Source of the DNA: Burkholderia cenocepacia
GTDB lineage: Bacteria; Pseudomonadota; Gammaproteobacteria; Burkholderiales; Burkholderiaceae
Assembly: GCF_900446215.1 (NCBI RefSeq)
Contig: NZ_UAQZ01000001.1
Span: 806,001-870,000, forward strand
Length of the DNA: 64,000 bases
Reading direction: 5' to 3'
Position 1 is the first letter of the stretch. Every line of letters starts with the position of its first letter. The notes under the pieces were generated by a model. It saw nothing but the letters and a program-made list of their open reading frames with translations, did no database searches and was not told where the DNA came from. Of the stretch, positions 51,340-53,891 are shown one piece after another. A program made the position numbers and the translations under genes.

Positions 51340-52146
51340 TCAGAACGCCGGCACGATCGCGCCGCCGAACTTCTGGTCGATGAACTTGCGCACGTCGTCC
51401 GATTCATAGGCCGCGACGAGCTTCTTCACCCACGGCTTGTCCTTGTCCTGCGCGCGCACCGCGATCAGGTTCGCGTACGGCCCGCGCAGATCCTCGATCG
51501 CGATCGCATCCTTCACCGGCGTGAGCCCGGCCTTGACCGCGTAGTCGGTGTTGATCGACGCGGCGTCGACGTCGGGCAATGCGCGCGGCAGTTGCGCGGC
51601 GTCGAGTTCGACGATCTTGATCTTCTTCGGGTTCTCGGCGACGTCGAGCGGCGTCGCGTTCACGCCATTCGTGCCGACGCCCGGCTTCAGCTTGATCACC
51701 CCGTATTTCTGCAGCAGCAGCAGCGCGCGGTTGCCGTTCGACGGATCGTTCTGGATCCCGACCTTCGCGCCGACCGGCAAATCCTTCAGCGACTTGAGCT
51801 TCTTCGAATAGAAACCCATCGGCGCGGTATAGGTGAGCCCGACGTTGACGATCTTGTAGCCGCGCTGCTTGATCTGGCTGTCGAGGAACGGCTGGTGCTG
51901 GAAGCCGTTCGCATCGAGATCGCCGGAATCGAGCGCCGCGTTCGGCTGCACGTAGTCGTTGAATTCGATGACCTTGATCGCGAGGCCTTCGCGCGCGGCG
52001 ACCTTCGTCACTTCGGTCCAGATCTGCGCGTCGGGGCCGCTCATCGTGCCGATCTTCAGCGTTTGCGGGTCGGCGTGCGCGGCGGGCGCGGCGAATGCCA
52101 GCGCGGCGGCGAGTACGCCGAGGCCGGTCAGGATCGAATGTCGCAT
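51340..52146 (-). CDS. metQ: Methionine ABC transporter binding lipoprotein-like protein (MetQ/NlpA family)
   Basis: A 268-residue binding protein starting at ATG 52146 (MRHSILTGLGVLAAALAFAA, cleavage after AHA). QTLKIGTMSGPDAQIWTEV, VIEFNDYVQPNAALDSGDLDANGFQHQPFLDSQI and YTAPMGFYSKKLKSLKDLPVGAKVGIQNDPSNGNRALLLL are the NlpA family signature. It lacks the usual lipobox Cys, so it may be a soluble periplasmic protein. No metN or metI genes are adjacent. Methionine specificity is by family. Confidence 0.88.
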   Translation of the reverse strand: MRHSILTGLGVLAAALAFAAPAAHADPQTLKIGTMSGPDAQIWTEVTKVAAREGLAIKVIEFNDYVQPNAALDSGDLDANGFQHQPFLDSQIKQRGYKIVNVGLTYTAPMGFYSKKLKSLKDLPVGAKVGIQNDPSNGNRALLLLQKYGVIKLKPGVGTNGVNATPLDVAENPKKIKIVELDAAQLPRALPDVDAASINTDYAVKAGLTPVKDAIAIEDLRGPYANLIAVRAQDKDKPWVKKLVAAYESDDVRKFIDQKFGGAIVPAF

Positions 52147-52301
52147 GGGGTGTCCTCTTGTCCCGTGTCGTTTGTTGGAGCACGGATCGTGGCACGGGGC
52201 CCGAGCGCCACCAACCAAGCTTATTTCATGTGCATATTCCTGATCGAGGTCGAACGACAGACAAATTCGGTATAACCCCGGATGTACATCCCGGGCAGAA
52301 T

Positions 52302-52589
52302 TTAGGGCCTGCTTGCATAGGGAACGTGCATGCGAATGCCTGAAATCGCTCGCAGGGCCAGGAGTGAGGAGCGCCGTTTGGCCGCGCCAAACAAGCGACG
52401 AACGACGCCGCCATGCGGGCGATTTCAGGCATTCCCGTGGATTGAATTTTTAGTTTGGGGTTGCCACGAGAACGGCCGCTCGCCGCGTTGCGCTCCTTGC
52501 GAATACGCGAGTATTCGCGGCGTCGCGCGCCTCGCGAGCGGCCGTTCTCGTGGCAACGCATGCACGTTCCCTATGCAAGCAGGCCCTAA
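52302..52589. repeat. 288-nt three-branched inverted-repeat element
   Basis: A perfect 33-bp inverted repeat (52302-52334 with 52557-52589) encloses two further perfect stems. Arm 1 is 52335-52349 with 52419-52433 (15 bp), containing an inner hairpin GTTTGGC-CGC-GCCAAAC (52376-52392). Arm 2 is 52460-52483 with 52534-52557 (24 bp), containing GCGAATAC-GCGA-GTATTCGC (52499-52518). An AT-rich linker (52434-52459) separates the arms. The element ends in TTA...TAA. Nothing credible is encoded. It could be a mobile MITE-like element or a structured RNA. It lies between metQ and the porin gene; the rest of the gap (52147-52739) holds only promoter-like DNA and a GGATGTACATCC palindrome at 52280. Confidence 0.93.
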
Positions 52590-52739: not shown

Positions 52740-53891
52740 TTGAACAAGAAACTGTTGACCATCGCCGCCCTGGCAGCAACGGCCGGCACGGCACACGCAC
52801 AAAGCAGCGTGACCCTGTACGGCGTCATCGATGCCGGTATCAGCTACGTGAACCACAGCAAGACCGCCAACGGCGGCACGGGCAAGCTGTTCAAGTACGA
52901 CGACGGCGTGGCCCAGGGCAGCCGTTGAGGCCTGCGCGGCACCGAAGACCTCGGTGGCGGCCTGAAGGCGATCTTCGTGCTCGAAAACGGCTTCAACAGC
53001 GGCAACGGCTCGATCGGCCAGGGCGGCGCGATCTTCGGTCGCCAGGCTTACGTCGGCCTGAGCCAGTCGCAATACGGCACGGTCACGTTCGGTCGCCAAT
53101 ACTCGTTCTCGACCGACATCCTCGGTTCGAACTACTCGACGGGTGGCAACACGGTCGCGGGTAACTATGCGTACCACGTGAACGACATCGACCAGCTCAC
53201 GTCGAGCCGCATCAACAACGCCGTGAAGTTCCAGAGCGCGAACTATTCGGGCTTCACGTTCGGCGCGTTGTACGGCTTCTCGAACTCGACCGACTTCGCA
53301 GGCGCACAGGGCACGGGCACCAACAACACCGGCGGTTCGTCGCGCGCATACAGCTTCGGCCTGAACTACGCGAACGGCCCGATCTCGGTCGGCGCGGCGT
53401 ACACGGACATCCGTTTCCCGAGCCAGTCGACGCCGGCCTTCTCGACGTCGATCGCGAACCTGAGCACCGGCAACGTCCGCGACCTCCGCACGTACGGCGT
53501 GGGTGGCCGCTACGTCTGGGGCCCGGCAACGGCATGGCTGCTGTGGACGCGTACGCAGTTCTCGACGGTGTCGGGCTCGGGCGGCACGTTCTACAACGCA
53601 TACGAAGCGGGCGCGAAGTACGCATTCACGCCGGCACTGTCGGGCGGCCTCGGCTACACGTACACGAACGCGACGCAAAACGGCAACTCGTGGCACTGGA
53701 ACCAGGTCAACGGTATCGCCGACTACGCCCTCAGCAAGCGTACGGACGTGTACGGCCTGGTCGTGTACCAGCAGGCTTCGGGCCGCGGCGTGCAAGCGCA
53801 GATCGGTTCGAGCACGAGCTACTTCAACACGTCGGGCACGGGTTCGAAGAACCAGATCGCCGCACGTATCGGTATCCGTCACAAGTTCTAA
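52740..53891 (+). pseudogene. Porin gene (OpcP/Omp38 type) interrupted by an in-frame TGA
   Basis: The frame starts at TTG 52740 (signal peptide to AHA) with GGAG upstream. Codon 63 is TGA (52926-52928), between GVAQGSR and GLRGTEDLGGGLKAIFVLENGFN. The paralogue at 13888 reads SGSRWGLKGVEDLGGGMKAIF, so TGA replaces a conserved Trp codon, one base from TGG. The frame then continues without a break for 320 codons to a canonical C-terminal strand ending in Phe. Without readthrough no porin is made. A sequencing error is possible. The initiation codon is TTG, also unusual. Confidence 0.88.

Follow-up and report, generated by a model that had tools for sequence, protein, structure and literature searches.

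What is the elaborately folded inverted repeat found at 52302..52589 of a 64,000-nt stretch of Burkholderia cenocepacia DNA (the window, as analysed here in its full length), and are its paired arms kept as DNA, as RNA or as both? A preliminary description of this locus had seen a 33-bp outer stem enclosing two further stems, had compared the TA at its ends with that of IS630-derived MITEs and had left a non-autonomous mobile element, a recombinase substrate and a structured RNA as candidates. The current analysis assigns the repeat to a dispersed multicopy family of small mobile elements, found in Burkholderia as well as in related bacteria. The explanation that we favour overall, and regard as probable, is that of a non-autonomous element mobilised by IS427-type transposases, with arms re-made by template switching and a core that is better tolerated on one strand. 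According to this explanation, an IS5-family (IS427-type) transposase would move the element of about 282 nt in trans, and template switching between hairpin arms during replication would copy one arm onto the other. The same template switching would sometimes invert the spacer, and the transcribed plus-strand core would be better tolerated by, or be useful to, the host operon than the minus-strand core.

The first T and the last A of 52302..52589 belong to the target sequence and the adjoining TAs are the duplicated target, so that the element proper comprises 282 nt (52305-52586), an extent also drawn from the comparison of occupied and empty sites. The left copy of the TA (52303..52304), which stands in the context Y-TA-R, is defined by the same comparison, and the right copy (52587..52588) by the empty sites and the count of sites with TA on both sides; neither is assigned to a strand. 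On the plus strand, arm complementarity and covariation define an outer stem P1, which is the 29-bp terminal inverted repeat (5' arm 52305..52333, 3' arm 52558..52586), a left arm stem P2 (52335..52358 and 52410..52433) closed by an apex (52359..52409), and a right arm stem P4 (52460..52483 and 52534..52557). Complementarity of the outer arms (52302-52334 and 52557-52589) is 100% over 33 nt, and the perfect 33-bp outer stem of the preliminary description is therefore present. Its perfect 24-bp inner stem is likewise found, the right arm (52460-52483 and 52534-52557; 24 nt) being 100% complementary; the perfect run of 15 bp also exists and sits inside a longer left arm (52329-52358 and 52410-52439) of 30 nt with 87% complementarity.

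The minimum free energy of the element as RNA is -213.5, compared with -119.05 +/- 5.4 for 200 dinucleotide shuffles (z = -17.49), none of which folds as well, so that the elaborate fold is real. It is refined by the linker on the plus strand (52434..52459; mean column identity 0.469), where CCC and GGG at the base (columns 130-132 and 156-158) are kept in 29 of 29 sequences of a diverse alignment. This invariance makes a short third hairpin (P3) with an AT-rich variable loop, and with it a four-way junction, likely. Since the three pairs of P3 never vary, this hairpin contributes no evidence of covariation. The longest listed reading frames overlapping the element, of 137 and 111 aa, both extend out of it; the element is thus short and has no transposase of its own. 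A single weak minus-strand site, not above shuffles (1 versus a mean of 0.7), was the yield of a search of the window copy for intrinsic terminators, and no sigma-70 promoter was found within this copy, the one promoter-like site falling outside the element. Comparison with Rfam gave four weak matches in the window (E 0.01-0.38), far under the gathering scores, and two weak matches among five loci, both in 4-143 of L296 and away from the element. Phage records were without match to the element.

In the window the element is situated between two genes whose transcription is directed away from it, namely an NlpA/MetQ-like lipoprotein gene on the minus strand (51340..52218) and a Gram-negative porin gene on the plus strand (52740..53891), both assigned by Pfam. 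The porin frame is broken by an in-frame stop near 52926 (about 52.93 kb), and the neighbours had been correctly labelled as metQ and a broken porin gene. The search for empty sites that had been proposed for this locus was successful: the metQ-porin site is without the element in 24 of the 37 loci read (24 genomes), where four bases, mostly TCAG, separate the flanks. A full element occupies it in the genome of the window, in genomes G056 and G058 and in B. cenocepacia; the copy in G025 is without most of the right arm, and G022 and G012 have remnants or diverged copies. A copy in G022 (L042) and one in G016 (L138, G016:C3:930641-930694) are collapsed to scarcely more than both terminal repeats, which form a small near-perfect palindrome. 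L138, a repeat-only palindrome of 50 nt, has been left out of the alignments and the context counts.

The genome of the window encodes one full-length copy, that of the window, and two degraded relatives. A half copy on contig 5 (G000:C5:14136-14262) is 89% identical to the right half of L286, and its subfamily has otherwise been seen outside the genus and in a small number of genomes within it. Matches to the element have been identified in 58 of 65 genomes of the genus, with at least 23 BLAST matches in the top genome; copy numbers in the genus are lower bounds, 11 candidates having been scored per genome. At the level of the family, 102 of 398 genomes and 10 of 25 genera have matches, and PLSDB records added one Caballeronia copy. 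When named genomes were scanned with a pattern of the P2 apex 113 stretches were obtained, the best 80 of the 113 all being from Burkholderia or Paraburkholderia. A search of 399 genomes of the order revealed a divergent copy in 17, of which 14 are outside the family; of these 14, 13 match over the P2 apex (69-86% identical) and the remaining one over a stretch of 27 nt in another part. The 151 rows extracted represent 150 distinct places (L271 and L281 being one place) at 94 sites, 22 of which are common to at least two genomes; as the best matches of longer lists they over-represent intact copies. The search of Burkholderia genomes suggested in the preliminary description thus reveals a dispersed family, and the case that it had taken as speaking against a mobile or RNA role, namely an element unique to its locus with stems that do not covary, is the opposite of what is found, for 58 of 65 genomes have matches and the stems covary. 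Neither a description of the element, in the titles and abstracts of the open literature, nor its motif strings, in the open-literature papers searched, have been found.

TA flanks the element on either side at 63 of 93 sites, and 56 of the 63 fit YTAR (Y-TA at one side, TA-R at the other), which bears out the insertion at TA targets and the TA duplication proposed earlier. Such a target fits IS5, as given in PMC10359306. The commonest end of the family, GGGTCTGTTTACAT, is identical to the 14 terminal nt of insertion sequences of the IS5 family (IS427 type). The string TA|GGGTCTGTTTACAT is present at one end of an IS of 826 bp in genome G016 and of another of 824 bp in G020, both flanked by TA, whereas the other ends agree with GGGTCTGTTTACAT at 11 and 13 of 14 positions, respectively. 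The window copy has the end GGGCCTGCTTGCAT, which matches the IS427-type end at 11 of 14 positions. The IS of G016 shows the features of the IS427 group in its length, its TA flanks and a transposase with PF13340 and PF01609 (Pfam) in two frames; the domains and the two frames were checked in this IS alone, and the protein of the G020 IS is 84% identical to that of G016. A table in PMC3281130 lists IS427 elements at 832-865 bp with a 2-bp duplication in all but one of the rows consulted, so that the two ISs are slightly below the tabulated sizes, while their 2-bp duplication fits.

The search of the window's genome for a close IS427-type IS was negative, the best relatives being 33-34% identical, and G020 has such an IS without any match to the element. 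An IS5-type IS occurs at nine loci of the window's genome (L070-L078), 99.7-100% identical over the shared stretch. Its best motif, GGGGCTGTTAAC, lies near one end and agrees at 11 of 14 positions, and this IS is a possible alternative mobiliser. Genome G009 encodes two composites of 1429 bp (L081, G009:C2:3506366-3507794, and L082, G009:C1:361849-363277) that are 99.3% identical. In both, an IS110-type gene (PF01548, PF02371) is inserted in the left-arm apex, and they occupy two different TA-flanked sites, so the element and its insert appear to have moved as a unit. The absence of a transposase frame, the terminal repeats, the empty sites and the dispersed copies support the non-autonomous mobile element among the candidates named at the outset, and the remark that it is more orderly than a simple deletion derivative is supported. 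The features of a MITE that were examined are all present, namely the short length without transposase, terminal inverted repeats, a target site duplication with empty sites, many copies and an IS with shared ends.

The stems of the element evolve as matched pairs. In a diverse alignment of 29 copies with the given structure (A1, from which L279, L281 and L290 are left out), 96.8% of 2291 cells are paired and 44 of 79 pairs have changed on both sides, comprising 18 of 29 in P1, 15 of 23 in P2 and 11 of 24 in P4, with P3 invariant; the paired cells amount to 98.8% in P2 and 93.0% in P4. Of the five measures compared with 500 shuffles, four have an observed value that no shuffle attains; on the remaining one, further pair types, 73 shuffles attain it, so that this measure is unremarkable. 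Slid structures pair 29.5-40.8% of the cells. The compensatory changes that had been proposed as a check are accordingly observed in P1, P2 and P4. For P1, counted in 76 of 89 copies (those of at least 290 nt being left out), 2109 of 2128 cells are Watson-Crick and 108 cells at 14 of 28 pairs are doubly changed. Pair 24:259, which the consensus has as an A.C mismatch, stands outside these 28; across the 89 copies it is A.C in 39, A-T in 26, G-C in 23 and C-G in one. The retention of A.C in 39 of 89 copies indicates that the correction between arms is incomplete.

Matched changes are also seen in place. The first 89 copies include 18 sites shared between genomes, at which each copy was compared with the first of its site; the 899 comparisons in P1 yielded 18 differences that are compensated and 22 that are single. 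By arithmetic, about 0.9 double differences would be expected if the arms were independent. The P2 stem has 10 compensated and 26 single differences in 713 comparisons, and the P4 stem two and nine in 775. The compensated changes include transversions, such as G-C to T-A and A-T to T-A. Gene conversion by another copy with different matched arms could be the source of changed copies at one site, and the number of independent events would then be smaller. The rare mismatches of the outer stems comprise 13 G.T and 12 A.C cells, and this absence of a wobble bias argues that the pairing is largely kept at the DNA level. Selection on a folded RNA would likewise produce covariation, and in P2 and P4 as folded G.T exceeds A.C by 113 to 3 and 218 to 21, an excess that comes largely from a few columns and from a fold that permits G.U. 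The homogenisation of arms in situ is a feature of template switching, which we infer to be the main cause of the arm pairing.

Inversion of the spacer, another feature of template switching, is found at the locus of the window itself. B. cenocepacia NZ_CP091013.1 has the 54-nt interior of the right arm (52482..52535, without assigned strand) as an exact reverse complement, 54 of 54 bases, and the rest of the 282 nt is identical. Inversion of the whole core between genomes is seen at 4 of 22 shared sites, the flip at L259, with doubtful end points, being the weakest of the four. Six sites of the divergent type include three with such a flip, of which one is doubtful, and 14 co-directional sites include one (Fisher p = 0.06), a difference that is only suggestive of flips being freer away from co-directional genes. 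In yeast, arm homogenisation together with spacer inversion has been reported as a result of template switching (PMC8604942), and template switching has been proposed to create and maintain RNA hairpins (PMC8794818).

The orientation of the core with respect to genes has been analysed at 93 sites, using a gene caller based on codon usage for which the window served as training set. The core is directed with its neighbours at 48 sites and against them at eight, lies between divergent genes at 17 and convergent genes at six, and 14 sites are incomplete. Most copies with both neighbours called therefore have neighbours of one common direction, and among co-directional genes the core has their direction at 48 of 56 sites (p = 4.7e-8). 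The window copy, being between divergent genes, is uninformative in this respect. The bias is 34:6 at sites of a single genome and 14:2 at shared sites; it comes mainly from the genus, with 42:5 there and 6:3 in copies from other genera. As the terminal repeats are near mirror images, a transposase should not sense the orientation, and the bias favours some effect at the level of RNA; selection would then act on the transcribed strand. At 15 of the 48 co-directional sites and at one of the eight opposite ones, the stop codon of a neighbouring gene is composed of the target TA together with the element's first base. For seven stretches from the plasmid collection annotation was sought, and five have none at the place. 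In P. sprentiae an annotated full copy has the stop codon 3 nt into the match and the next gene 18 nt behind, all co-directional; the half copy annotated in B. stagnalis has divergent neighbours.

The P2 apex, on the plus strand, is the most conserved part of the element, with a mean column identity of 0.844, followed by the P4 apex (0.814) and the P4 stem (0.811), while the P1 and P2 stems have 0.725-0.742. Three loci from outside the family (L294, L295 and L296) are predicted to form an outer stem that encloses two arms whose stems differ in sequence. A short middle hairpin is predicted in L294 and L296 and none in L295; the ends are GAGCCT-type in L295 and L296 and GGGTCT in L294, and the two apices of L294 and L296 resemble inverted copies. 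The alignment folds at -165.2 on the plus strand compared with -154.7 on the minus strand. Docking of the P2 and P4 apices as a coupled interaction was considered and dropped, as the arms of one copy match each other no better than those of other copies (means 21.34 and 21.30). An RNA-level role of the element is plausible, the strand bias and the conserved P2 apex being arguments that RNA still matters. Pairing at the DNA level and relevance of the RNA are compatible, and both can be true.

The favoured explanation has two main rivals. One of them, unlikely as a full account and still a serious one, is that the element is a structured RNA or mRNA-processing module under selection, whose apices would bind a protein or be cut and which the mobile ends merely spread. 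The orientation at 48 of 56 sites in spite of symmetric terminal repeats, the P2 apex that exceeds the P1 and P2 stems in conservation and is recognisable in 13 genomes of other families, the nested arms built from other stems in L294-L296, the strong covariation with G.T far over A.C in folded P2 and P4, and the somewhat better fold of the plus strand are all consistent with it. Against it stand the outer stems, which have no preference for G.U among their rare mismatches, the frequent A.C mismatch of P1, the compensated transversions and a P4 stem that equals its apex in conservation; the site of the window is empty in 24 genomes, and Rfam has no match at threshold. The other rival takes the element as an ordinary MITE, in which the orientation bias would reflect a preference at insertion, or polarity of the minus orientation alone, and the stems would be passive products of homogenisation. 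All features of membership that were tested agree with this doubtful but economical view, which has no need of a host function, and the seemingly freer flips away from co-directional genes would suit it. It does not account for the persistence of the architecture and of the P2 apex in families with different stems and ends. A more far-reaching proposal, speculative and rather improbable, would combine these elements into a four-way-junction RNA module with conserved apices, carried across families of Burkholderiales on exchangeable IS5-type ends, kept in sense in operons where it may alter or insulate two cistrons, and with stems re-made by template switching.

Two further candidates come from the preliminary description. 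A site-specific invertible element or recombinase substrate could account for the exact 54-nt inversion and the whole-core inversions at 4 of 22 shared sites, and inversion of an arm in place does occur as that candidate supposes. The segments that flip are nevertheless different and nested, with end points in inverted-repeat arms and not at one fixed site, and template switching at inverted repeats yields the same product, so that a dedicated recombinase is unnecessary; we consider this candidate very improbable. Descent from IS630 was suggested by the TA, and a duplicated TA is also typical of IS630. A DDE_3 (IS630-type) transposase gene was not found in the genome of the window and is present in 19 of 65 genomes of the genus; among 30 DDE_3 loci fetched, only L177 has the full first 10 nt of the element ends, and there a copy of the element adjoins the IS630-type gene. 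With the other loci lacking matching ends of their own and the ends of the element agreeing with those of IS5/IS427-type ISs, an IS630-derived MITE has hardly any probability left.

The element shares with MITEs of the IS5 family (IS427 group) the absence of a transposase, terminal inverted repeats, the YTAR target with TA duplication, ends in common with ISs and the large number of copies. It differs from them by an outer stem of about 30 bp around nested arms, stems that evolve as matched pairs, the conserved P2 apex and the orientation bias with flanking genes. REP and BIME palindromes are, like the element, extragenic and present in many copies; the element is far longer and has a TA duplication and IS5-type ends. 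ERIC, Correia (CE) and BOX repeats have other hosts and other ends. They are, like the element, short folded repeats in transcribed intergenic DNA according to PMC3049150, where the effects of ERIC on transcripts depend on orientation, CE are targets of RNase III and a BOX repeat may provide a gene with its stop codon. By description, the element differs from these three in its 282 nt and nested arms, the comparison at the sequence level being that with Rfam alone. With inverted repeats homogenised by template switching, as treated in PMC8604942 and PMC8794818, it has in common the homogenised arms, compensated changes of several bases and spacer inversion; what sets it apart is its nature as a mobile element of bacteria, which is dispersed over many loci and has several nested arms.

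The 151 rows, with their 150 places and 94 sites, constitute a natural bacterial series whose orthologous sites record both matched changes in the arms and inversions of the spacer. With this series it becomes testable whether covariation of stems comes from selection on RNA or from mutational template switching. It is common practice to regard covariation as proof that an RNA is functional, and much of it has a DNA-level explanation here; the strand bias, which is independent of it, nonetheless points to an effect of the RNA. If that effect is true, many operons of Burkholderia would have an unannotated intercistronic control element.

A REP-like unit of 27 nt (CCCCAAGGGGACTTCCTT...) has been identified in 19 of the 151 rows (L127-L137, L139, L140, L246, L251, L264, L266, L267 and L279). 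It is at one of two mirror positions of the left arm in 16 rows; L136 and L137 have it at both positions, and L279 has it at a different place. Of four genomes searched, three also contain similar units at places other than the listed copies, which makes independent insertion possible, and the unit was therefore dropped as proof of copying from arm to arm. An intercistronic site between genes that we take to be glcE and glcF from their translations is occupied in nine rows (L026, L028, L034, L092, L139, L247, L251, L276 and L279), representing seven genomes of the genus and two of another genus, and the copies of either genus belong to a subfamily of their own. Occupation of this site in two genera indicates that the insertion is very old or has been repeated.
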